A stretch of DNA of 64,000 nucleotides, from assembly GCA_004764695.1 (NCBI GenBank), contig SMSO01000032.1, positions 7,522,668-7,586,667 on the forward strand, read 5' to 3'. The notes below the pieces were generated by a model. It had not been told where the DNA came from. It was given only the letters and a program-made list of their open reading frames with translations, and did not search any database. The stretch is from Schizochytrium sp. TIO01 (lineage: Eukaryota; Sar; Bigyra; Thraustochytrida; Thraustochytriidae). Below are positions 162 through 54,589 of this stretch, piece after piece. The first letter of the stretch is position 1. The number at the start of each line of letters is the position of its first letter. Both the position numbers and the translations under genes were made by a program.

Positions 162-2273
162 TAACGGAGAAGTGACATCAGGCCGTCCAAGTGACCCGGA
201 AAATGCGGTAGGCCTGGGTCTGCACTTGAGCACTTGCTTAAGCCATTCTTGTAAACCGCAAGGAAGTAGAACCCGTTGATGATTGTGGAGCAGGCAAGGC
301 CTTTGGAGTTCAAGATACAATGACGTTGGTGAAGGTTATGAAAACTATTTTACTTCATTTGTCAACTTGAGGTGGACATTTGGACACCCGTCGCAGTTTC
401 GAATGTATTGTCACGGCGTAGTTCCTCGAATAGTCTGAAACGAATGTCAAGCTTCAGAGGTTCTTCCAGACTTGCGTTCTGGTGAACGGTTCGTGCGAGA
501 GCAAATACATTGACCTTGGAGTTATCGTTGTGCCATTAAGAACCTCGTCAAGTTACCCTGTGCAAGCTGTGGAGTGAGTGCCTTGGGTTCCCTATGCCGA
601 CGTAAGTTTATCAACGTGACGTCACAAATTTTGTTGGCGAGAGGAGAGTTCCCGCAACCTTCTCTCCAGAGTCAGTCTAACCTGCTGCCACCGATGTCTC
701 TGCTTGCATGCCTGCCTGCTAGTCCAAGCACAGTGAGCCTATCCAATATCCAAAGCTCAATCAAATTTCAAGCTTCTAACCTTTCGAAGGATTGTATCTC
801 AAGCATGGCTTATCATGGCTTGTCAGCATAAGCGAGTAATACTTCTCGCTGCACATCAATGGTCTCTAGTCAACTCGCGAAACTCTATGTCTATTGAGAA
901 GACCAAGTCATTCATCCAAACCTTGATCGCGCGTCATGCTATTAGAGAGCACCTTGATAATATGAACAAATAGACATATGTGTATATATTTCAATAATAA
1001 ATTATGTATTTATACTATGACACGGTCCTTGCGCGTATTCCTAAGGGTGCGACACCTTGGTATATTTATGGGTGTTTGTCAGGAACTCGTCGGGATTGTG
1101 TTCATTTGCGATAAAACATTAACACATTTACCATGATACGACTGGATATTATCACCACGACATGTATCTTCGTCAACTAGGTACCTCCCCCTTTGCCCCA
1201 AATGGTAACAACAGTCCAGCTGGAACATACAAAGCATACATGATATCTTTCTCAGCCACAACTGGGGTGGTAGATTTCATGGTACTATATTCTTTTCTTT
1301 GGCATTTGACGCGCTTTTGAAAAGCGAGCAGACGTTGAACGAGCAGCAGCACTCCTCTTGTTGTAATAAAACACCCTCATCGCCTCATTCGTGCATGACA
1401 GTGCAGTGCTCATCACCCCCTTCAATCCATGGCTGCACAATGGGAAGTACTAGGTACGTAACCAGCGTCATCATAGGACATGTGATGTGGACCCATCATG
1501 ACCCTCCATCCCAAAGACCCCTCAAAAGCGCATCAAACTTATCTCCCACCAAGAATAAGAAGTCCTCGCTTGCTTGTTTCTGCAATGGATGCTACAGCCA
1601 CGGCATCAAGCACCATGACAGCTAGGCATGACTTCGCCACCCCATCACAACTTGAAAGCTTTAGAGTTGTGAAGTTGTGCTGTACCGGCCAGTCCCAGCT
1701 GCTCTTGCTTGAGTAAGGCGATGAAATGAATGTCCTTCCTGCAACAAATGACGTTCCATCGAGCCCTCGATTATTGCGGTTTCTCTCGACACGCACACCG
1801 CTCATACAGAGGAAGGAGCACCTGGCCCCACTCGGAGTTTGCGGCAGCGTCGCCTTCACCCTCCAGCTTGGATGGCCATACGATCGTCTCCAAGTTCTTC
1901 ATGTTCTCATGTTCTTCATGTTCTTCAGTAGGCCTCGAAGACGTGTGGGAGCGCTGACCACGGCTGTTTTGGAGGCTGGCGGGCCCGACAGTCACCTCTC
2001 CAAGGAACTTACTTACTCGCCTCCCTGAAGCAGCTGAGCCCAAACTATTCACAGGCACAATGTCAGAGGAACTGGCCAATTTGGGCAAAGGCCGCCACAT
2101 TGGAGTAAAATGGAGCTCGCGTTCGCTTCACGCAACGGACTCAATCTTGGAGTTGAAACCCGCAAGAGATCTATCTGTCTACAAGCTCGAATGCAACTCG
2201 TTCAAGTTGAGCTCCATCGAAGAAGAGCGCTCGGACCTCCAAGTTTACAGCGCCCAAACTAACCAACTCATCA

Positions 2274-2301
2274 ACCAACTAACTAACTAACTAACTAACT
2301 T
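2274..2301. repeat. (AACT)n microsatellite
   Basis: About six consecutive AACT units at the end of a small open frame starting at 2060. The repeat supplies that frame's stop codon. Confidence 0.85.
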
Positions 2302-3173
2302 TCATACTTCCTGACTTCTGGACCCTTTCGCACGCAGCCTGCAGATAAATTCATACGCAGACAACCTCTTGCTGTGCAAGCATGGATCAGCTCCGGAGCG
2401 CCAAGGCCGCATCAGCAGCCAAACCGTCGATGATGGCCGGATCCACAGCCGGGCAATTTGGCGCCGTTTTCGAGGTCGAGCTTGAATGCGCCATAGTACT
2501 CGATGATGGCGTCACTCGCTCGATTCATAAGATAAGCAGCTTACCATTAGTACCTCCTAAACGCACCTAGCGCAGAGAAGATTCGCCCGAGCCAGCATCG
2601 TCTCGCATACAGAGGTCTCCGGCCTGCCCCCCTCGAAGCCGGGTCGCCACCAGCTTCTGCTTACCTGGCCAAGCTGCCGACGCCGAGGGGTTAGTTTGGA
2701 ACTACCCAACGATAGTGTGACCACCGGGGAAACCTTGGAGTAGAAACGCCGGCGCCGTGTGTGGTGCGGAATCTGAGATGTTAATACAGGCGTGTGATTG
2801 TGGGTCTTTGGGGAGAGATGGAGGAGCCGCAAGCGACGGCCCTTAGGCTTCGAACAGGGCGGCGCGGGAGCTCTCGTGACAGCCAGATTTACAGTCTGCG
2901 GTGTTGATTGAGCCCTGGGGTTTCAGGTTTATGTGATTCTATTTTAACTTATTTTTTAGTCCTGAAAGTTACACATTTATTTTTTACTATTTATTTATTT
3001 TATTTAAATTAAAAAAAATGTTCATTTATTTCATAAGAGAAACTAATCACAATTCAAGTTCATCATTTTTCAAGTTACATGAAATAGTTTCGAAATAGGT
3101 GGTCTCCCTTTCAGCGATTGTTCACTCTTATGGTTTATGATAGAAGGGCTGACAATGGGGGCAGCTCATAAAG

Positions 3174-3256
3174 CAAGAGAGAGAGAGAGAGAAAGAGCGA
3201 AAAGCCTAAACTTCGAAACATTTTCCCTTTTTCTTTTCTTTTCTTTTCTTTTCTTC
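3174..3256. repeat. (AG)n followed by (TTTTC)n simple repeats
   Basis: An AG run at about 3174-3193 is followed by several TTTTC units at about 3230-3255. Both are low-complexity spacer and break up any credible coding reading here. Confidence 0.8.
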
Positions 3257-4159
3257 TCATTTCATTTGATCTGTTTGTTTCTATTCTTCGGAATTTGCAT
3301 GAACGGTGGAAGCTTGCGAGTTTCCAAGAAAGGCTTATCAGAAGTGGTGGCGAAGCTCTTTCCAGCCATCGGAAATCCGCTGGCTTTGAGTCAAAACATC
3401 ACTGCAAGCACCCGTCTTTCAGGTGCCTTCCGTCTGAAGGTTTTGAGCCACCTGGTGAGCTCTTGCAGCGTTTCCACGGCCGAATGAATCGAAGGCATTT
3501 CCATTCCACGAACCTCCTGACCCTTTCTCTATGCTTTATTTTTATTTTATTTTTTTAAAGGTATCTACCTATGTACTTCCCTAGCAAGGACTAGTTCCAA
3601 CATTTTTCTATTTCTATTTATTTATTTATTTATTTTTATTTGTGGTTTTGTTTGTAAAGGTTTGGATTTGGTCAAAGCCTCGGATCCAACTTGGGCGGAA
3701 TCAATTCAGGTAAGACAATCAAAGCCTTCAGGATTTGCAGCACTTTAGTACATACTGCAGAGAGTGGAGGTTAATTATGGTCCGTTGTGGTGAAGACTTT
3801 GCAAAGGTTTAACTTACATTCGCAGGCGAGTTTTCTTTTCTGGAGCTGTCTTCCGTTTATCCAGGATGTACTTCCTTCAAATTTATTGCGCAGCATTCTT
3901 TTTGACGAGTGACCAGCGATTTTACGATTCTTATTAATTTTATTTTCAACTTAGGTACACAATGAATAAATGTTAGGAAAATAAGACAGCCTGACATCGC
4001 GTCGCTTATGCTCGACAAATGTGGAATCTTGACATTGCGCGAGGGCCGACCCCTCTTTGGTTAACTTGCAAGCCTGCACTTGCACGAATTAGTCCATGGC
4101 TTTACATTGACAGATTGAACCCCTTTTCAATGCTTCTTCTGTGTACTATTCAGATTAAA

Positions 4160-4202
4160 TAAGAATAAATAAATAAATAAATAAATATATAAATAATAAA
4201 TA
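4160..4202. repeat. (AAAT)n microsatellite
   Basis: Seven or so AAAT units in an AT-rich spacer. Confidence 0.8.
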
Positions 4203-5354
4203 GGGGAATAGCTGCAAAAGTTCCGAAGTAACCTTAGTGCCATCAATGAACGAATAAATAAGAATCAATGAATGAGTTGCAAATGATGTCTCAGGCTCCT
4301 TTGCATTGTAGTTTGTCTTTGCCTCTTATAGCCGCCTTCCCTTCCATTATGGCGGTCTTTAAGTTACATTCAAGAAAATAGCGCCGTTTGTATTCAGGTC
4401 ACTTGTTCCCACGATGGAAAATGATATGGAAATGGCAATGGGTAAATGGAAACGACAGGAATGAGCAATGCCTCTTCGTTTGCAGGCTGAGTTTGCAGGA
4501 GTAAAATATGCTTCTCTCAGGACTCGACCCGAGCAAATACCACAATGTCTCCGTTGCGATTTTGGTTTACCGGCACTGAATGATCTCCGCCGTCATTTCC
4601 TGATTGCAGAAGCTCCTCTCGTTAACAAATCAAGCAGATTATTAGCAGTAATAATAGTAATAGTAGTATTAGGAGCCTGCTATTCATAAAAACTAAGTTA
4701 AACCTGTGATAAAAGAAAAGAAAAGCTATGACTCATAATGCCGAGGTATATGGAACCTTTGGAACGGATGCTTCATTTGAATTGGATTGGTTAAAAAAAA
4801 TTAACAATTTAAATTACAATTCTGACTGATGATAGAAAAGCAAAGAACTTTGAAACTTGAAGAAGAAAAAAAGAAAAAGAAAAAGAGAGAGAAAAGAAAT
4901 GGAGAAAAATGGAAAATGAGAAGTGACGAAATAACTTTGAGCGGCAGACTGCCTTCGCTCCAGGCCCGGAGCGCGGCAGAGAGCGACGCGTTCACGCTCT
5001 TCCGCTGCCGAGGCGCCGCTGGGACTTTACGGTACGTTCGGGACTGATTTTCCGGAGGTTGGACCCCGAGGATCCTGACGAAGGTGGATGGGCAGTGATT
5101 AATGGCATGCCGATTTCGATCCAACCACGACGCTTTCTTCTGCCTTCACAGAAAAGCCAAAGGCTTGCATTGCCTTGACATGTTTGCGAGAGCGTGTTTA
5201 ATTGCGCGTTTGTATCTCGAGCTCTGTTTGACAAGAACGAGGGTTTTGCGGGGCGAGGGTGAAGCTGTGATGCCTAATGATGAACCAAGACTGACGGAAT
5301 CTGGACGGGAACTGTGGAATTTTGCGCAAACAAATGTCTTGAAATTTGATTCAC

Positions 5355-5380
5355 GTGGTGGTGGTGGTGGTGGTGGTGGA
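5355..5380. repeat. (GGT)n microsatellite in the methionine synthase leader region
   Basis: About eight GGT triplets, 150 bases upstream of the methionine synthase start. It may be transcribed as 5' leader, but no reading frame continues from it into the gene. Confidence 0.8.
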
Positions 5381-5528
5381 TTGGATCTCACCTTGCAGGT
5401 CTCGATTTGAACGTTTATAGAGGAGCACTATCTTAATTCACTTGCTTGCAAAAGTAGTGAAGACTGGCGCTGAGTGCATCTATTCGTGCACTGGCGACAG
5501 AAACTTTGTTGTCTTTCGGTGAGACATC

Positions 5529-8500
5529 ATGGCGTCCGATAATGTGGAGAAAAAGCCTCATGTGAAGTTCTCGTGGAATTCTGGCGATGCTGCCAAGCCC
5601 AAACCACAGACAAATGGCCCTCCGCGCCCACCTAGTGAAGCTGCTCGTAATTCTACGCCCAACCCGTACGATTACGAGGCATTCAACAACATTGAAGAAA
5701 TTGCGTCTCTTCGGAAGAATGCTGACAAACTCAACTGGGCCCAGCCGGCAGACCTGTACCCTCAAAACTTTCCCGCCTTTGTCCGTGCCCGTGATAGTTT
5801 GCGTGAGTACATTACCAAGCTCTTCACTGATGAAATTGCACTCTATGATGGTGCCATGGGTACCATGATCCAGAACTACGCCAAAGATAACACTCTTGAG
5901 GAAGCCGAGTTCCGTGGTGATCGCTTCAAAGACTGGTCTTGCTCAGTCAAGGGCAACAATGATATGCTCTCGATCACTCAGCCCAAGGTCATCAAGGACA
6001 TCCACAAGGCGTACCTTGAGTCTGGCTCCCGCCTCATTGGTACCAACACTTTCTCGTCTACCACGATTGCCCAAGCTGATTACGAGATGGAAGACTTTGC
6101 GTATGAGCTGAACTACATCAGTGCTCGTCTTGCTCGTGAGGCTTGTGATGAGGTGACCGCCGCTGACCCGACCAAGCCCCGCTTTGTTGTTGGTGCTATT
6201 GGCCCTACCAACCGCACTGGTTCGATCTCTCCGGATGTGGAGGACCCGAGTGTCCGTAACGTCACTTTTGACGAGCTTGTGACTGCTTACTTTGAGCAGG
6301 TTGTCGGTCTGATGGATGGTGGTGCCGATATTTTGATGGTTGAGACAATCTTTGATACCCTCAATGCCAAGGCCGCTTTGTTTGCTATCACAGAGTATCT
6401 CGAGATGACTGGTCTTGATGTGCCTGTTTTCGTTTCTGGTACATTGGTAGACCAGTCTGGTCGTACACTGTCAGGTCAGACCGGTGAGGCATTCTACGCT
6501 TCCATTCGTCATGCCAGGCCCATGTGTGTTGGTCTCAACTGTGCTCTGGGTGCTCAGCAAATGGAGCCTTTCTTGGTTCGCCTTAGCGAGGTTGTTGAGT
6601 GCTTCGTGCATGTTTATGCCAATGCTGGTTTGCCAAACGCCATGGGAGGCTATGATGATACCCCTCACGACATGGCCTGCTACAACACACCGTTCTTTAC
6701 CAAGAACCTTGTGAATATGGTAGGTGGTTGCTGTGGTAGCACCCCGGGTCACATTGCTGCTTTGGGCGAGACAATCAAGGCGCAGGGATTCAAGCCACGT
6801 CCTCTTCCTGACCTTGGTCTTCCGAAGATGTGGCTCTCCGGTCTTGAGGACTTGATTGTTGATGATGTGCATAACCAACACGGAATGCCTTTCTTGAACG
6901 TTGGCGAACGCTGTAACATTGCTGGCTCCCGCAAATTCAAGCGTTTGATTATGGAAGGCAACTACGGTGAGTGCATGGATATTGCCAAACAGCAGGTTGC
7001 TGATGGTGCACACGTAATCGACATCAATGTCGATGATGGTATGCTCGATGGTCTTGAGGCTATGCAAAAGTTTGTCAAGATCGCTATCACCGAACCCGAG
7101 GTCTCCAAGGTGCCCTTCATGCTCGATGCATCAAACTTTGATATCGTCCTTGCTGGTCTCAAGTGGTGCCAGGGCAAGCCTATTGTGAACAGTATCTCTC
7201 TCAAGGTCGGTGAGGAGAAGTTCAAGAAGCAGGCTACCTTGTTGCGCAAGCATGGTGCTGCTATTGTTGTGATGGCATTCGACGAGGAAGGTCAGGCAGC
7301 TACAGAGGATGAGAAGGTTCGAATCTGCAAGCGTTCGTACGACATTCTTGTGAATGAGATTCGCTTCCCGCCTGAAGATATCATCTTTGATCCCAATGTC
7401 CTGACTATTGGTACCGGAATGGAGGAGCACAACTCGTATGGTGTTGACTTTATCAACGCAGTGCGTCGTATTAAGGAGTCATGTCCGTTTGCAAAGATCA
7501 GTGGTGGTATTTCTAACTTGAGTTTCGGATTCCGTGGTGTACAGAAGATTCGTGAGTCCATTCACGCTATTTTTCTTGAGCATGCAATTTTGGAGTCTGG
7601 TATGGATATGGGCATTGTCAACGCTGGTGAGCTCTTGTGTGCAGACGATGTAGAGCCAGACTTGCGTGAGCTTTGCGAGGATCTCGTTCTCAACAAAATT
7701 CCTGAAGCCACTGAGCATATGCTTGAAGCGACAGCATATGAACGCAGCGTAATTGATGCTCGCAAGAAGGGCCTTCCTGCTCCGAAGAAGCCTCGTATCA
7801 AGGTGACGAAAAAGCCTCATGTGAAGTTCTCTTGGAATTCTGGTGACGCTACTAAGCCGAAGCCCCAAACGACTGGCCCCCCTCGTCCTGTCTCAGATGC
7901 TGCGCGCAACTCAACACCGAACCCGTACGATTACGAGGCATTCAACAACATTGAAGAAATTGCGTCTCTTCGGAAGAATGCTGACAAACTCAACTGGGCC
8001 CAGTCAGCCGACACGTACTCTTCTAGCTATCCTTCGTTTGTCCGTGCTCGGGACAGCCTGCGCGAGTACATTACCAAGCTCTTCACTGATGAAATTGCAC
8101 TCTATGATGGTGCCATGGGTACCATGATCCAGAACTACGCCAAAGATAACACTCTTGAGGAAGCCGAGTTCCGTGGTGATCGCTTCAAAGACTGGTCTTG
8201 CTCAGTCAAGGGCAACAATGATATGCTCTCGATCACTCAGCCCAAGGTCATCAAGGACATCCACAAGGCATACCTTGAGTCTGGCTCCCGCCTCATTGGT
8301 ACCAACACTTTCTCGTCTACCACGATTGCCCAAGCTGATTACGAGATGGAAGACTTTGCGTATGAGCTGAACTACATCAGTGCTCGTCTTGCTCGTGAGG
8401 CTTGTGATGAGGTGACCGCCGCTGACCCGACCAAGCCCCGCTTTGTTGTTGGTGCTATTGGCCCTACCAACCGCACTGGTTCGATCTCTCCGGATGTGGA

Positions 8501-11500
8501 GGACCCGAGTGTCCGTAACGTCACTTTTGACGAGCTTGTGACTGCTTACTTTGAGCAGGTTGTCGGTCTGATGGATGGTGGTGCCGATATTTTGATGGTT
8601 GAGACAATTTTTGATACCCTCAATGCCAAAGCCGCTTTGTTTGCTATCACAGAGTATCTCGAGATGACTGGTCTTGATGTGCCTGTTTTCGTTTCTGGTA
8701 CATTGGTTGACCAGTCTGGTCGTACACTGTCAGGCCAGACCGGTGAGGCATTCTACGCTTCCATTCGTCATGCCAGGCCCATGTGTGTTGGTCTCAACTG
8801 TGCTCTGGGTGCTCAGCAAATGGAGCCTTTCTTGGTTCGCCTTAGCGAGGTTGTTGAGTGTTTCGTGCATGTTTATGCCAACGCTGGTTTGCCAAACGCC
8901 ATGGGAGGCTATGATGATACCCCTCACGACATGGCCTGCTACAACACACCGTTCTTTACCAAGAACCTTGTGAACATGGTAGGTGGTTGCTGTGGTAGCA
9001 CCCCGGGTCACATTGCTGCTTTGGGCGAGACAATCAAGGCGCAGGGATTCAAGCCACGTCCTCTTCCTGACCTTGGTCTTCCGAAGATGTGGCTCTCCGG
9101 TCTTGAGGACTTGATTGTTGATGATGTGCATAACCAACACGGAATGCCTTTCTTGAACGTTGGCGAACGCTGTAACATTGCTGGCTCCCGCAAATTCAAG
9201 CGTTTGATCATGGAAGGCAACTACGGTGAGTGCATGGATATTGCCAAACAGCAGGTTGCTGATGGTGCACACGTAATCGACATCAATGTCGATGATGGTA
9301 TGCTGGATGGTCTTGAGGCTATGCAAAAGTTTGTCAAGATCGCTATCACCGAACCCGAGGTCTCCAAGGTTCCCTTCATGCTCGATGCATCAAACTTTGA
9401 TATCGTTCTTGCTGGTCTCAAGTGGTGCCAGGGCAAGCCTATTGTGAACAGTATCTCTCTCAAGGTCGGTGAGGAGAAGTTCAAGAAGCAAGCCACTTTG
9501 TTGCGCAAGCATGGTGCTGCTATTGTTGTGATGGCATTCGACGAGGAAGGTCAGGCAGCTACAGAGGATGAGAAGGTTCGAATCTGCAAGCGTTCGTACG
9601 ACATTCTTGTGAATGAGATTCGCTTCCCGCCTGAAGATATCATCTTTGATCCCAATGTCCTGACTATTGGTACCGGAATGGAGGAGCACAACTCGTATGG
9701 TGTTGACTTTATCAACGCAGTGCGTCGTATTAAGGAGTCATGTCCGTTTGCAAAGATCAGTGGTGGTATTTCTAACTTGAGTTTCGGATTCCGTGGTGTA
9801 CAGAAGATTCGTGAGTCCATTCACGCTATTTTTCTTGAGCATGCAATTTTGGAGTCTGGTATGGATATGGGCATTGTCAACGCTGGTGAGCTCTTGTGTG
9901 CAGACGATGTAGAGCCAGACTTGCGTGAGCTTTGCGAGGATCTCGTTCTCAACAAAATTCCTGAAGCCACTGAGCATATGCTTGAAGCGACAGCATATGA
10001 ACGCAGCGTAATTGATGCTCGCAAGAAGGGCCTTCCTGCTCCGAAGAAGCCCCGTATCAAGGTGACGAAAAAGCCTCATGTGAAGTTTTCATGGAATTCT
10101 GGTGAGGCTGCGAAGCCGAAGCCCCAAACGACTGGACCTCCTCGCCCTCCCAGTAAGGCAGCCCGCGCTTCAACACCGAACCCGTACGATTACGAGGCAT
10201 TCAACGACATTGAAGAAATTGCGTCTCTTCGTAAGAATGCTGACAAACTCAACTGGGCCCAGCCAGCAGACACGTACTCTTCCAGCTATCCTTCGTTTGT
10301 CCGTGCTCGGGACAGCCTGCGCGAGTACATTACCAAGCTCTTTACTGATGAAGTTGCACTCTATGATGGTGCCATGGGTACCATGATCCAGAACTACGCC
10401 AAAGATAACACTCTTGAGGAAGCCGAGTTCCGTGGTGATCGCTTCAAAGACTGGTCTTGCTCAGTCAAGGGCAACAATGATATGCTCTCGATCACTCAGC
10501 CCAAGGTCATCAAGGACATCCACAAGGCATACCTTGAGTCTGGCTCCCGCCTCATTGGTACCAACACTTTCTCGTCTACCACGATTGCCCAAGCTGATTA
10601 CGAAATGGAAGACTTTGCGTACGAGCTGAACTACATCAGTGCTCGCCTTGCTCGTGAGGCTTGTGATGAGGTGACCGCCGCTGACCCGACCAAGCCCCGC
10701 TTTGTTGTTGGTGCTATTGGCCCTACCAACCGTACTGGTTCGATCTCTCCGGATGTGGAGGACCCGAGTGTCCGTAACGTCACTTTTGACGAGCTTGTGA
10801 CTGCTTACTTTGAGCAGGTTGTCGGTCTGATGGATGGTGGTGCCGATATTTTGATGGTTGAGACAATCTTTGATACCCTCAACGCCAAGGCCGCTTTGTT
10901 TGCTATCACAGAGTATCTCGAGATGACTGGTCTTGATGTGCCTGTTTTCGTTTCTGGTACATTGGTTGACCAGTCTGGTCGTACACTGTCAGGTCAGACC
11001 GGTGAGGCATTCTACGCTTCCATTCGTCATGCCAGGCCCATGTGTGTTGGTCTCAACTGTGCTCTGGGTGCTCAGCAAATGGAGCCTTTCTTGGTTCGCC
11101 TTAGCGAGGTTGTTGAGTGTTTCGTGCATGTTTATGCCAACGCTGGTTTGCCAAACGCCATGGGAGGCTATGATGATACCCCTCACGACATGGCCTGCTA
11201 CAACACACCGTTCTTTACCAAGAACCTTGTGAATATGGTAGGTGGTTGCTGTGGTAGCACCCCGGGTCACATTGCTGCTTTGGGCGAGACAATCAAGGCG
11301 CAGGGATTCAAGCCACGTCCTCTTCCTGACCTTGGTCTTCCGAAGATGTGGCTCTCCGGTCTTGAGGACTTGATTGTTGATGATGTGCACAACCAGCTTG
11401 GAATGCCTTTCTTGAACGTTGGCGAACGCTGTAACATTGCTGGCTCCCGCAAATTCAAGCGTTTGATTATGGAAGGCAAATATGGCGAGTGCATGGATAT

Positions 11501-14126
11501 TGCCAAACAGCAGGTTGTAGACGGTGCACACGTAATCGACATCAATGTCGATGATGGTATGCTGGATGGTCTTGAGGCTATGCAAAAGTTTGTCAAGATC
11601 GCTATCACCGAACCCGAGGTCTCCAAGGTTCCCTTCATGCTCGATGCATCAAACTTTGATATCGTTCTTGCTGGTCTCAAGTGGTGCCAGGGCAAGCCTA
11701 TTGTGAACAGTATCTCTCTCAAGGTCGGTGAGGAGAAGTTCAAGAAGCAGGCCACTTTGTTGCGCAAGCATGGTGCTGCTATTGTTGTGATGGCATTCGA
11801 CGAGGAAGGTCAGGCAGCTACAGAGGATGAGAAGGTTCGAATCTGCAAGCGTTCGTACGACATTCTTGTGAATGAGATTTGCTTCCCGCCTGAAGATATC
11901 ATCTTTGATCCCAATGTCCTGACTATTGGTACCGGAATGGAGGAGCACAACTCGTATGGTGTTGACTTTATCAACGCAGTGCGTCGTATTAAGGAGTCAT
12001 GTCCGTTTGCAAAGATCAGTGGTGGTATTTCTAACTTGAGTTTCGGATTCCGTGGTGTACAGAAGATTCGTGAGTCCATTCACGCTATTTTTCTTGAGCA
12101 TGCAATTTTGGAGTCTGGTATGGATATGGGCATTGTCAATGCGGGAGAACTTCTTGGCGCAGATGAGGTTGAACCTGAATTACGGAAGTATTGTGAAGAC
12201 CTTGTGCTTAACAAGAATCCTCAAGCCACCGAGCGGATGCTTGAGGCTACTCAACGTGAGCGTGAACGTCTGAAGCGTTTGAAGGAGGGTGGCGGAGAAG
12301 CTGCTGCTGCAGCCAAGCCTACCGATTGGCGCTCAAAGCCTGTTAACGAGCGTCTCTCTCATGCACTGGTAAATGGTATTACAAAGTTCATTGAGAAGGA
12401 TGCTGAGGAGGCTCGGCTCGCATCATCAAAACCTTTGGATGTTATCGAAGGTCCTTTGATGGACGGTATGGGCATTGTTGGTGATCTTTTTGGCGCTGGC
12501 AAGATGTTCTTGCCTCAGGTGATTAAGTCTGCTCGTGTCATGAAGAAGGCTGTTGCCTACTTGGAACCTTTCATTGAAGAAGAAAAGGAGGCAAACCTCC
12601 GTGCTCTTGGTATTAACCCTGAGGACGCAGATCCTGATGAGGTTGCCCAAGGTACCTTCTTGATTGCCACGGTTGCTGGTGATGTTCATGATATCGGTAA
12701 AAACATTACAGCAGTTATTCTTGGTTGTAATGCCGTGAAGGTGATTGATCTTGGTGTCATGGTACCTTGCGAGGACATTATTAAGGCTGCAATTGAGAAT
12801 AAGGTGGATTGTGTTGGTCTATCTGGTCTGATCACACCCAGCCTTGACGAGATGGTTAAGGTTGCAAAGGAAATGAAGAAGGCTGGCCTTAATGTGCCCC
12901 TTCTCATTGGTGGTGCAACTACAAGCAAACGCCACACCGCGATTAAGATTGCTCCTCACTACGCAACTCCCGAGCACCCTGTGATGCATGTACTTGATGC
13001 CAGTCGTGCTGTCACTGTTGTGCAGTCTCTTCTTTCCGAAGAAGATAAGCCTGACTTCGTTGAGGAGGTCCAGGAGGAATATGAAGAGATTGTCGAAGAC
13101 TACTATGCTGGTCTAGAGGAGCGCAAGTTCTACCCCTTGCCGGTGGCTCAAGAAAAGCGTCTCAACATTGACTTTGAAGCTATTCCTCCTGCACCGAAGC
13201 CACATGTGGCTCTTGGGGCGCAGAAGGCACCAGATTGCCCGATCGAGGATGTAGTACCGTACATCGACTGGGGTCCGTTCTTTCACACCTTTGAGCTGCG
13301 TGGCAGGTATCCTAACCGCGGCTACCCGAAGATCTTCAATGATGCCAATGTTGGTGCTGAAGCCAAGAAGCTCTTTGATGAGGGACAGGAGATGCTGAAG
13401 AAAATTATGGCTGACAAGAGTTTGTGGCTCGAAGGCACATATGGTATCTTTGCTGCCAACCGTAGTGCAGACGGCGAGGATGTTGTCATCTATGAAGATG
13501 AGAGCCGCAGCACCGAACGTGGTAAGCTCTGCATGCTCCGTCAACAGGCACAGAGCGAGTCTGCAAACATGTTTAGCCAAGCTGATTTTATTGCCCCTTC
13601 GGGCTTCCGAGATTACATTGGTGGCATGGCCGTTGCTTGTCATGGTGTTGATGAGCTTGCTGGCAAATATAAGGCTGACAACGATGATTTCACCAGTATT
13701 CTTGTACAAGCTATTGGTGACCGTCTGGTCGAAGCTTACGCTGAGAAGCTGCATCGCGACATCCGTGTGGAGCTGTGGGGTTACGCCAAGTCTGAATCTC
13801 TTAAACACGAAGACTTGCTCAAGATCAAATATGATGGTATCCGCCCTGCCCCCGGATACCCCTCGCAACCCGACCATACAGAGAAGAAATTCCTGTGGGA
13901 GTTGATTGAAGCTGAAAAGCTTGCTAACATGAAGCTTACGTCTAGCTACAGCATGGTCCCTGCTTCTAGTGTGTCTGCTTTAATCTTTGCACACCCTGAG
14001 TCTGAGTACTTTGCTGTTGGCCAGATCCAGAAGGATCAGGTTGAGAGCTATGCCACACGCAAGGGCGAGTCCGTTGAGTATGTGGAGAAGTGGCTTGGCT
14101 CAAATCTTGCTTATGACACTGCTTAA
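5529..14126 (+). CDS. metH: cobalamin-dependent methionine synthase with triplicated homocysteine/folate half
   Basis: Transfers a methyl group from 5-methyltetrahydrofolate through cobalamin to homocysteine, making methionine in the cytosol. The 2865 codons hold three tandem Hcy plus folate modules (units from residues 8, 761 and 1514) and then one cap (about 2266-2340), one cobalamin domain (about 2350-2510) and one AdoMet reactivation domain (about 2577-2865). Zinc cysteines in GLNCALG and GGCCGS are at 338/401/402, 1091/1154/1155 and 1844/1907/1908. Each folate domain begins [11 protein letters not shown]. The cobalt-ligand motif GDVHDIG has its histidine at 2387, and RPAPGYP of the reactivation domain is near 2771. 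Ordinary MetH is about 1230 residues with one Hcy/folate half. The ATG has A at -3 and G at +4. No stop or frameshift interrupts 8.6 kb. Family identity is certain; what the extra modules do is unknown. Bacterial contamination is unlikely given the eukaryotic flanks. Confidence 0.97.
5550..7808 (+). repeat. methionine synthase Hcy/folate unit 1 of 3
   Basis: First 2259-bp in-frame direct repeat, beginning at [12 protein letters not shown] after only seven unique codons. It contains a full homocysteine domain (about residues 98-430) and folate domain (about 455-700), then a charged linker ending PKKPRIKVT. Its N-terminal linker differs from the later units around [12 protein letters not shown]. 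The rest of the unit appears identical in protein to unit 2, with scattered silent differences in DNA. Confidence 0.95.
7809..10067 (+). repeat. methionine synthase Hcy/folate unit 2 of 3
   Basis: Second copy, offset exactly 2259 bp from unit 1. Divergence from unit 1 is confined mostly to two linker patches, at about 7830-7918 and 8002-8065. They are separated by an identical tract at about 7920-8002. It keeps the same diverged tail and linker (LLCADDVEP, then [10 protein letters not shown]) as unit 1. Confidence 0.95.
10068..12325 (+). repeat. methionine synthase Hcy/folate unit 3 of 3
   Basis: Third copy, again offset 2259 bp. The core stays nearly identical to units 1 and 2 until about 12140. 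There the DNA changes abruptly to the tail that leads into the cap domain (LLGADEVEP, then an Arg/Glu-rich helix and an Ala-rich linker). Amino-acid differences visible against units 1 and 2 include His to Leu at NQLGMPF, Asn to Lys at GKYGECM, Ala to Val at VVDGAHV, and Arg to Cys at NEICFPP. The zinc cysteines are kept. Confidence 0.93.
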
Positions 14127-46936: not shown

Positions 46937-46967
46937 TCAGTTCGTTCCTCGTGGTCGGTGGCGGTCC

Positions 46968-47402
46968 GTCGGCCTACGCGAGTGAGGCCAACCAGCTGCT
47001 TCGAGTTTGCTTCGTCTTCTTCGAATTCCAATCGTCGGATCGTTGTTCGAATCCATTCATCGACTTGATCCATGGATCGTTTCAAATTCGAGGCCTGAAA
47101 TTCAAACGGAGGTGCCCTGACAGAAGAAAGAAGAGAAACGGAATCGCATTGACATCTTCAATCTCCACTCTTCGTGAACAATTCGTCGGCCTACGCGAGT
47201 GAGGCCAACCAGCTGCTTCGAGTTTGCTTCGTCTTCTTCGAATTCCAATCGTCGGATCGTTGTTCGAATCCATTCATCGACTTGATCCATGGATCGTTTC
47301 AAATTCGAGGCCTGAAATTCAAACGGAGGTGCCCTTACAGAAGAAAGAAGAGAAACGGAATCGCATTGACATCTTCAATCTCCAATCTTCGTGAACAATT
47401 CG
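46968..47402. repeat. 217-bp tandem duplication, two copies
   Basis: The segment beginning GTCGGCCTACGCGAG at 46968 is repeated at 47185, immediately head to tail. The two copies differ at only two positions I could see (CCTGACAG against CCTTACAG, and CCACTC against CCAATC). The period is not a multiple of three, and neither copy keeps a frame into the other, so it is not coding in the ordinary sense. No target-site duplication or terminal repeat marks it as a transposon. It looks like a recent segmental duplication. Confidence 0.93.
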
Positions 47403-51762: not shown

Positions 51763-54075
51763 TTAAGGAATTTTGTTTGTAGCCAGGGCTTCCTTGTACA
51801 TCTGTATAATCTCAGGAGCTTTATGTGCTTGCGTGAAAAATGTTGCGTGTGCTACAGCCAATCCCATATATACTTGCTCCCGCTCACCAGCAGCAAGGGC
51901 TACTGTTGTAATGGCGTGCTCATCATCTGGGCGATTCTTCATGACGTAAGATTTCGCCTTTTGGAGCATGGCTCCACGAAGTCCAATAAAGTTAATAGAA
52001 CACCGATCAGTATATGGTTCAGCAACTCCGTTCTTGCGAAGTTCAGCAGTTTTTTCCAGAACCTGATCTATGTTGTCAATCAACCATCTATGCATTTTCA
52101 CAATTTTATCGGGTTCACCCCACATAGGAGGCCCCAATTCTGCAGGTAAGAGTCCATGCTTAACAATTCTAGCCCCAGCAACGTCATTGTTAAAAACAGT
52201 GGCCGAGAAAAAGAATGTGTCTTTATCGGCACGAATGAAATCCACGAAAGATGGCACTCCTTTAACGTCCAAAAAGACAACATCATCATCAACTTTGAGC
52301 AAAACATCATCATCAAGGATTTCCATATAAGAGCTTGCGTAAAACTCATAGTACACGTGCCACTTACAAATACTGGGCGTAGCAATCTTGACACGTGGAT
52401 CCGCACGAGCAAGACTATGGAGCCACTGCCTATCTGTGTACCACTGTTTATCATTTGGTCGTTTTTCCTTAGTAAGACAAGTAATATCCCATATATGCAT
52501 CTCTGAAATATAGCCCTGGTCAAGAAGTTCTTTCACGTATCTCACTTGCAAATCAAAAACTCCTTCTCGACCTGCAAAATTCGTCCAGATAGTCTGAGGG
52601 GTTCGCTCTTTACGCGGGCGACGGAAAATCGAATCTCCATCAAGAAGAGGAATATCAACGTAGCGATTCTGAGATTGCATTGAATGAAACCTAGCAACTC
52701 CAGATCGAGTGTCGAACTTTAGGATCGAGCTTAGTAGGCCAAGGTCACGCCAAACATGGTATTTCTGTTCTATCAACATCCCAGGCACATCTGAGATTGT
52801 CTGGGGCTTTCCAGATGCTTGAGCAATAAAGGACGCAATTCTGGAAGCCTGGCGTCCCGAAAAAGAGAATTGTACTGCTTCTGCATCATCGTTCATTATA
52901 TCACTCGCAGAGCCTGCCTGCTCTGTTTTTCCTGCAAACTGAGCAAACTTATCAAAATCTTTAGACAGCACAGCGATACCATCCTTGGGCAAGAAATCAT
53001 TGCTAACCAAGCCTTCTTTAACTTGCCAAGGGTTACCCATACTATTACTGATCCAGCCAATTACATTCTCGCAGCTGGAATGCTCGCAAGGAAGATTGCC
53101 CCGAACTCGTTCTGCGAAATCAAACACCCGACGGCCATCCAAAAAGTTAATTGATGGGCTTGCAAAGATGACAACATCGTCTTCACGAAGAGATGTCTTA
53201 TAAAAGTTGAAAATGTCCTCCACACTTGCATATCCTTCATTTGCAGCTACCCGTTTCCATACCGAGCCGAGAAACTTATTCGCATTTGATCCATGGGTAG
53301 CCGCATTCCAAACGTGAACAGTGTCAATGGAAGCAGACCCTTGAGTAAGAAACTCAGCATATTTTCTTGGCATCCCGAGAAGAGGAGCTGTTGCATCGAC
53401 AGAAAATGTAGCAAGAATAATGATAGGCGCGCCATTCTCAGGACGATTCTCAAGAAACTCGTCCTGAATTAAAGATGCAGGTGGTGCATGGACAATGCTA
53501 CTATCAGCCTCTGGTACGTCTGCTGCTTGTGCGTCTGCTGCTTGTGCGTTTGCTGCTGGTGCGTCTGCTGCTGGTTCGCCTGCTGCTGGTTCGTCTGCTG
53601 CTGGTTCGCCTGCTGCTGGTTCGTCTGCTGCTGGTTCGCCTGCTGCTGGTTCGCCTGCTGCTGGTTCGCCTGCTGCTGGTTCGTTTGCTGCTGGTTCGTC
53701 CGCTACTGGTTCGCCTGCTGCTGGTTCTGACTCAGATGTTTCGGCGGGGATCACTTCATCAGGTTTGGCACGAAGATTGCCAGAGCTCCCTGTCACCTTC
53801 GCGCTCTCCTCGCTTGGACCGACATGCCCAAGGTCCTGAATTTGATCATTCGAGTGTTCATTATTTGAGGTCTCAGGTACTGTCACTTGAAAAGCGTTTT
53901 GAACCTCAAATACTGAAAAGGATTGGGACAGGACAAGAACGAGGATTATAAGACATCCAATTGAGCGCCGGCGAGAGAAACTGCTGCCTTTCGCCATAGC
54001 GATGCTTTCCATTGAAGGTGTGGAATACAGGTGATTGCTTGAAGAAGAAGAGTCACCAGGACGGTTGAATTGCAT
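51763..54075 (-). CDS. type II membrane glycosyltransferase-like protein with duplicated domain
   Basis: A 770-residue protein from the first in-frame ATG at 54075. A basic cytosolic tail and membrane anchor (about 39-55) precede an Ala/Glu/Pro repeat stem (about 118-190), as in Golgi glycosyltransferases. Two homologous regions follow. Region A (about 215-365) has LREDDVVIFASPSINFLD; region B (about 493-770) has ILDDDVLLKVDDDVVFLD. The Asp triad at 596-598 in B fits the DxD nucleotide-sugar/metal motif of GT-A enzymes, while A has Ser-Pro-Ser there. Both continue into a matching helix (FDFAERVR / SFVDFIR) and a GL-x-LP-type segment. B has later conserved-looking stretches (DRCSINFIGLRGAM, RPDDEHAITTVALAAGE). 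The exact GT family and sugar are not recognised. A later Met (41 codons into the longest open frame) is an alternative start. Confidence 0.7.
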   Translation of the reverse strand: MQFNRPGDSSSSSNHLYSTPSMESIAMAKGSSFSRRRSIGCLIILVLVLSQSFSVFEVQNAFQVTVPETSNNEHSNDQIQDLGHVGPSEESAKVTGSSGNLRAKPDEVIPAETSESEPAAGEPVADEPAANEPAAGEPAAGEPAAGEPAADEPAAGEPAADEPAAGEPAADAPAANAQAADAQAADVPEADSSIVHAPPASLIQDEFLENRPENGAPIIILATFSVDATAPLLGMPRKYAEFLTQGSASIDTVHVWNAATHGSNANKFLGSVWKRVAANEGYASVEDIFNFYKTSLREDDVVIFASPSINFLDGRRVFDFAERVRGNLPCEHSSCENVIGWISNSMGNPWQVKEGLVSNDFLPKDGIAVLSKDFDKFAQFAGKTEQAGSASDIMNDDAEAVQFSFSGRQASRIASFIAQASGKPQTISDVPGMLIEQKYHVWRDLGLLSSILKFDTRSGVARFHSMQSQNRYVDIPLLDGDSIFRRPRKERTPQTIWTNFAGREGVFDLQVRYVKELLDQGYISEMHIWDITCLTKEKRPNDKQWYTDRQWLHSLARADPRVKIATPSICKWHVYYEFYASSYMEILDDDVLLKVDDDVVFLDVKGVPSFVDFIRADKDTFFFSATVFNNDVAGARIVKHGLLPAELGPPMWGEPDKIVKMHRWLIDNIDQVLEKTAELRKNGVAEPYTDRCSINFIGLRGAMLQKAKSYVMKNRPDDEHAITTVALAAGEREQVYMGLAVAHATFFTQAHKAPEIIQMYKEALATNKIP
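53514..53736 (-). repeat. 15-bp coding minisatellite (Glu-Pro-Ala-Ala-Gly/Asp repeat)
   Basis: About fifteen tandem 15-bp units inside the glycosyltransferase-like gene, encoding alternating AAGEP and AADEP pentapeptides that decay to AADAQ at the membrane-distal end. Unit length is a multiple of three, so copy changes keep the frame. It probably forms an extended stem whose length can vary between strains. Confidence 0.9.
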
Positions 54076-54589
54076 CTGAGATACAAATAAAGGTTTTTCT
54101 ACAATGCAAGCCAAGTGCTTCGATGCTTGATGCACGTTTTCGCCTCGAGCAATATTAACAACAATGGCAGGTTGACAATGTTGCTAATGAGTGACAATGG
54201 CGATGGCCGTAAAATGCGCAGTATTGAAGTGCTCCACAAGACACCTTGAACGCCCTGCTAACGAAGATTTGGGCTCACTCAAGCGTGACTCCGCACCTCC
54301 AATCCGCGCGCTCCTTGAGTACACAGAAGAGCAACTGGGCAGTCGCCCGCCCGGAACGAGCGTGTTGTATGCGCTGCCTGCGTCCGCTTTCCCTGACCCA
54401 GCCACACGCACAGCGCGGCAATGAGTTTTACTTTCCATTTTTTTCTGTGTCGCCGCTTGCTTCTTCACTTTCGAGTCCTAGAGTCATAGTCACTTTGAAT
54501 AGCTCCCAATTCATCATATACGCACATAAAGATTCCTAGTTCCCAAAACAGAACGTTTATATACAAAACAAAGGGTTGAACTCACAAAC

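Follow-up and report, generated by a model that had tools for sequence, protein, structure and literature searches.

The question raised by this locus is whether a methionine synthase (MetH) gene can truly hold three N-terminal substrate-binding halves with a single cobalamin-binding C-terminal half and, if so, what the additional halves would do. The window (the whole stretch of 64,000 nucleotides of Schizochytrium sp. TIO01 that was analyzed) contains a metH-like gene as one uninterrupted forward ORF, 5529-14126 (+), encoding 2865 amino acid residues (315.7 kDa). The ORF starts in the context TGA GAC ATC ATG; an in-frame TGA directly precedes the ATG, and the ATG at 5529 is therefore the first in frame. 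The ORF scored over the cut-off for the metH equivalogs NF007024 and TIGR02082 (NCBIfam). By Pfam, PF02574 and PF00809 were found in each of three units, and PF02607, PF02310 and PF02965 were found once, downstream of unit 3. The usual MetH ratio of one N-half to one C-half, a customary arrangement that catalysis does not demand, is thus broken, with three N-halves to one C-half. The features are as follows.

5529..5840 (+), N-terminal segment ahead of the unit 1 homocysteine match; no Pfam family over the cut-off
5841..6773 (+), unit 1 homocysteine barrel; PF02574, with GLNCALG at 6531 and VGGCCGS at 6720
6903..7622 (+), unit 1 folate barrel; PF00809, motifs 7125 to 7497
7623..8099 (+), unit 1 tail and linker to unit 2; 159 residues between Pfam matches
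8100..9032 (+), unit 2 homocysteine barrel; PF02574, motifs at 8790 and 8979
9162..9881 (+), unit 2 folate barrel; PF00809, motifs 9384 to 9756
9882..10358 (+), unit 2 tail and linker to unit 3; between Pfam matches
10359..11291 (+), unit 3 homocysteine barrel; PF02574, motifs at 11049 and 11238
11421..12140 (+), unit 3 folate barrel; PF00809, motifs 11643 to 12015
12345..12566 (+), Cap domain; PF02607
12654..12929 (+), cobalamin-binding domain; PF02310, with DVHDIGKN at 12681
13242..14066 (+), AdoMet/reactivation domain; PF02965 at 347.8 bits, with RPAPGYP at 13842

The ORF scan and the Pfam domain order confirmed the claim of an earlier note, made from the letters of this DNA, that a single ORF joins three homocysteine-plus-folate pairs to one cobalamin half. 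The hallmarks of MetH (homocysteine barrel, methylfolate barrel, Cap/cobalamin domain and AdoMet reactivation domain) were present by both Pfam and motifs. GLNCALG and VGGCCGS, which we take to be the Zn site of the homocysteine barrel with its Zn-binding cysteines, each occur three times and align to the same motifs in human MTR. DVHDIGKN presumably represents the DxHxxG motif of the cobalamin lower ligand. On these features the product of 5529-14126 is classed as a cobalamin-dependent methionine synthase, with a predicted methyl transfer from methylfolate to homocysteine.

The best PDB match was full-length human MTR (9ssp, identified as such in the available text of PMC13376404), with an alignment spanning residues 81-1351 of the C-terminal 1352; the first 87 residues of the N-terminal segment fall outside the alignment to this protein. 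The five domains stand in identical order in human MTR, bacterial MetH and the present ORF, and the catalytic motifs are kept. Relative to human MTR, the differences are two added N-halves in front, the 159-residue spacers, an N-terminal extension and the size (2865 versus 1265 amino acid residues). The inter-unit linker matched no Pfam family over the cut-off; its four matches in the genome all lie within ORF 5529-14126, and 12 pattern matches in viral contigs gave none that was confirmed. A basic stretch of 11 residues occurs at both unit junctions (7785-7817 and 10044-10076 of the window) and may resemble a nuclear-import signal. No Rfam element was matched at the gathering score in the 64-kb window.

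The bacterial comparison set comprised the 80 best loci out of at least 598 matching stretches. Exactly one ORF of >200 amino acid residues with the homocysteine motif GGCCG was found at all 80 loci; it was joined to the cobalamin part in 73 and formed a separate ORF of 344-365 residues in 7, and frames carrying the cobalamin motif reached at most 1444 residues. PF02965 was found in 185 of 198 genomes of one bacterial phylum, that of Mucilaginibacter locus L018 (presumably Bacteroidota), where the longest open frame among the matches listed was 1387 residues. No tandem MetH appeared among the matches listed in the literature searches, most subscription papers lying outside their coverage. Within these three bodies of data, the earlier statement that no MetH with such an architecture is described is consistent with what was found. 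In the IMG/VR viral collection, the MetH homocysteine motif and the cobalamin part lie on separate ORFs in contigs L012 and L014-L017. Such split MetH, together with that of the 7 bacterial loci, resembles the present gene in that heads and carrier rearrange as modules; however, split MetH separates the heads from the carrier, whereas the tri-headed MetH multiplies the heads, which is the opposite direction.

Self-comparison at a lag of 2259 bp gave 91-100% identity in 16 windows of 250 bp (starts 5751 to 9501), 74% and 84% in two edge windows, and 20-34% in the remaining compared range. Together with the unit alignment, it bore out the 2259-bp period and the unit starts at 5550, 7809 and 10068 that had been reported. 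As a correction to the note, the units differ in part: the front segment, 276 bp at the start of a unit, is only 83-91% identical among units, and unit 3 diverges from units 1 and 2 from 12140 on, into the normal folate-to-Cap stretch. For further comparison, each unit was divided into a front (codons 1-92), a core (codons 93-690) and a tail (codons 691-730). The catalytic cores (1794 bp) are 98.6-99.2% identical, with 15, 26 and 23 differences between units 1-2, 1-3 and 2-3, respectively, a likeness that chance does not explain. In the same order, dS was 0.039, 0.055 and 0.047 and dN was 0, 0.0036 and 0.0036 in the core, while in the front dS was 0.82, 0.84 and 0.25 and dN was 0.083, 0.071 and 0.060. 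The tails of units 1 and 2 are identical; against unit 3, both showed saturated dS and a dN of 0.17. Fourfold-site tests supported the contrast of front with core (p 2.7e-14, 1.5e-15 and 3.5e-06) and of tail with core against unit 3 (p 1.4e-12 and 4.3e-15), and found the unit 1-2 tail indistinguishable from the unit 1-2 core (p 1). The core of unit 2 switches between unit-1-like and unit-3-like stretches, with 7 runs over 26 informative sites (shuffle p 0.0099 for the core sites only; p 0.0016 with the unit-3 tail sites added).

Each of the seven barrel motifs was found three times and each of the five C-half motifs once, and no unit lacked a checked motif. A degenerate reservoir role for the extra heads is less likely, because the motifs are intact in all of them. 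An alignment to 73 bacterial MetH proteins of full length had 376 columns with at least 97% conservation, 40 of which were flagged as deviating. Of these 40, 23 deviate alike across the three units, 15 belong to the one C-half, a single column is specific to one unit (I to V in unit 3), and the last is a gap of the alignment within the C-half. With 23 columns deviating in all units and one in a single unit, the heads depart from the bacterial consensus together. Between the cores of units 1 and 2 there are 15 synonymous and no nonsynonymous differences (binomial p 1.7e-10), and between those of units 1 and 3 there are 21 and 5 (binomial p 4.1e-10). Gene conversion makes this core constraint weaker evidence for the use of each head, since idle units can stay clean in that way. 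The front segments, which lie outside the homogenized core, are also constrained (p 7e-10 for units 1-2, and 1.3e-10 and 0.00067 for the others). Unit 2 has its first in-frame ATG at 8115 and unit 3 at 10374 (residue 103 of the unit), inside the homocysteine match, which begins at 8100 and 10359, respectively; internal initiation would therefore not yield an intact head.

Based on these data, the architecture appears genuine and long retained. An assembly stutter is unlikely, because the fronts reach a dS of 0.84 and the tail of unit 3 shows saturated dS relative to units 1 and 2, despite the nearly identical cores. The simplest account of the repeat would begin with an ancient duplication of the N-half, in frame, giving two heads whose edges then diverged. 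A later unequal crossover between misaligned cores would have produced the middle unit, with its unit-3-like front and unit-1-like tail, and gene conversion since then would hold the catalytic cores nearly identical; this order of events is the one we infer. A single crossover does not explain the identical unit 1-2 tail alongside a unit 2-3 front dS of 0.25, so the account also requires that the tail was converted afterwards.

The genome searched comprises 64.06 Mb in 37 contigs, with the window on contig C31. PF02965 had a single match genome-wide, in ORF 5529-14126 (7 of 14 controls were positive). Profile searches with PF02965, PF00809 and PF02574 detected no separate C-half or N-half gene: PF00809 had four matches, namely the three units and one on contig C13, possibly, we assume, a dihydropteroate synthase, and the three further matches of PF02574 scored best as stand-alone homocysteine methyltransferases, one of them over an NCBIfam cut-off. 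Searching the DNA of the genome with unit 1 as query hit the three units and nowhere else, so this assembly shows neither a second allele nor a contig carrying a different number of copies. PF01717 (MetE) had no genome match, with 10 of 14 controls positive, although an intron-split gene could escape this search. The genome also encodes a further B12 enzyme, methylmalonyl-CoA mutase, and MTHFR had three matches. The light-harvesting domain PF00504 had no genome match (single positive control, Synechococcus), whereas a PUFA synthase is present; the two results led us to discard a diatom origin, which base composition had suggested at first, in favor of a probable thraustochytrid-type labyrinthulomycete.

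The neighboring genes in the window encode a TPT transporter, a TPX2 protein, a DUF3591-bromodomain protein (presumably TAF1-like) and TsaD, and two neighbor genes are long uninterrupted ORFs of 1282 and 1943 amino acid residues. Two other repeats were seen in the window: a 217-bp unit present twice at 46967-47402 (99% matches), and a 15-bp unit repeated 14.5 times at 53511-53727, inside a 790-residue reverse ORF, 51763-54135 (-), for which no Pfam match was obtained at 0.001.

Another tandem array in the same genome is the carrier region of the PUFA synthase (OrfA/PfaA), located at C4:607500-617499 (positions 620-9716 of that piece). It contains 10 tandem carrier units, 89-96% identical to the first, with 10 GIDSI motifs (GIDSI being, we assume, the carrier-unit motif); seven of the nine spacings are 330 bp, one is 381 and one is 324. 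The PDB matches of the KS-MAT region were general polyketide synthases (best 60 of 217), and self-BLAST found no repeats of at least 200 bp inside a large PKS region of the genome. The KS-MAT frame (620-3712) differs from the carrier frame (3201-9716), owing to an indel of the assembly, a genuine break or some other cause. Both the PUFA synthase and the present MetH hold nearly identical tandem domains in one chain with common partner domains. However, the PUFA synthase repeats the carrier, whereas here the catalytic substrate-binding heads are repeated and the carrier is single.

The reading that we prefer, and to which we give about an even chance, is that the triplicated N-half architecture has one tethered B12 carrier serving three interchangeable heads. 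The gene would be translated as one 316-kDa chain, in which the mobile cobalamin module would visit any of the three tethered heads, leave a head that still holds product for one already loaded with substrate, and thereby raise the methionine output per bound B12. Both the sharing of the carrier and the benefit per B12 are inferences. According to the available text of PMC13376404, the N-half of human MTR is a rigid barrel pair, Linker 2 is flexible and the halves act independently; the corresponding text of PMC10567725 describes methionine synthase as five domains on long flexible linkers, like beads on a string. A shared carrier is plausible because the human halves are flexibly linked and 159 residues lie between each folate match and the next homocysteine match. 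Where loading or the release of product is slow, a higher number of heads per carrier could be of advantage. The tandem ACP array is somewhat like this arrangement and is the nearest functional precedent; PUFA productivity climbs with ACP number, as given in the available part of PMC5067506. Counting against the shared carrier, the array could be strain-specific.

A possible but doubtful alternative is a near-neutral array, in which in-frame unequal crossover adds heads that are tolerated, only unit 3 is served in cis, and heads 1 and 2 are passengers kept clean by conversion. Conversion is indeed visible in the alternating unit 2 core, and the PUFA synthase carriers provide another in-frame tandem array in this genome. 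Against this, the fronts and tails outside the homogenized core are still constrained, their divergence (dS from 0.25 to saturation) points to long retention, and every head keeps all checked motifs.

It is unlikely that heads 1 and 2 work in trans, by serving the cobalamin modules of other molecules, using free methylcobalamin, or storing homocysteine and methylfolate. In E. coli, the isolated N-half is active with free cobalamin, which counts for this possibility. The human N-half has likewise been solved as a separate structure (4ccz; an N-half construct in the available text of PMC13376404), so heads can fold alone. Nevertheless, cis tethering is an odd design for a trans-acting head, and the genome searches detected no free-standing N-half gene.

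A conventional mature product, from which splicing or proteolysis removes or separates units 1 and 2, is very improbable. Although the nearly identical repeats would permit unit-skipping splicing and the basic stretch lies in both junctions, the uninterrupted neighbor ORFs of 1282 and 1943 residues make introns look uncommon in the window, no NPGP motif (which we take to be the 2A-type motif) was found in the sequence, and there is no in-frame ATG upstream of the unit-3 barrel. Least credible of all is an assembly artefact concealing a true gene with one or two units: nearly identical 1.8-kb repeats are error-prone, and the PUFA synthase frame break in the same assembly may be a base error, but each unit has a private front and the tails fall into two classes with saturated dS, which stutter or allele mixing alone would not make, the contig reaches beyond 7.5 Mb, which suggests long reads, and the frame is intact across 8.6 kb.

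For the preferred shared carrier, a selective cause may tentatively be proposed, although we are inclined to doubt it: scarce cobalamin would be shared by three heads, whose number would be set by unequal crossover and, in a marine protist dependent on B12, kept by selection for the methionine gained per B12. Scarcity of B12 is compatible with the absence of a detected MetE. B12 auxotrophy is reported in three thraustochytrid species in the available text of PMC12734794, which also calls thiamine the unique essential vitamin for an Aurantiochytrium sp. Another stramenopile carries METH without METE (available part of PMC12614181), and a Schizochytrium sp. has a MetE-like fusion gene responsive to cobalamin lack (available part of PMC9734096). 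The B12 pressure on the host may be weak, given this MetE-like fusion, the thiamine-only Aurantiochytrium sp. and the other homocysteine S-methyltransferases encoded here. The available portions of PMC12221091 and PMC6451014 contain no description of a thraustochytrid MetH.

MetH is the classic case of a single carrier domain swinging between substrate sites. With a tri-headed MetH one could ask how far a tethered cobalamin domain reaches, and three substrate modules per carrier would allow one to ask which step limits turnover: the loading of modules, the release of product or the chemistry of cobalamin. If the number of heads tracks the B12 supply, it would constitute a genetic means of economizing on B12, in addition to the known choice between MetE and MetH.
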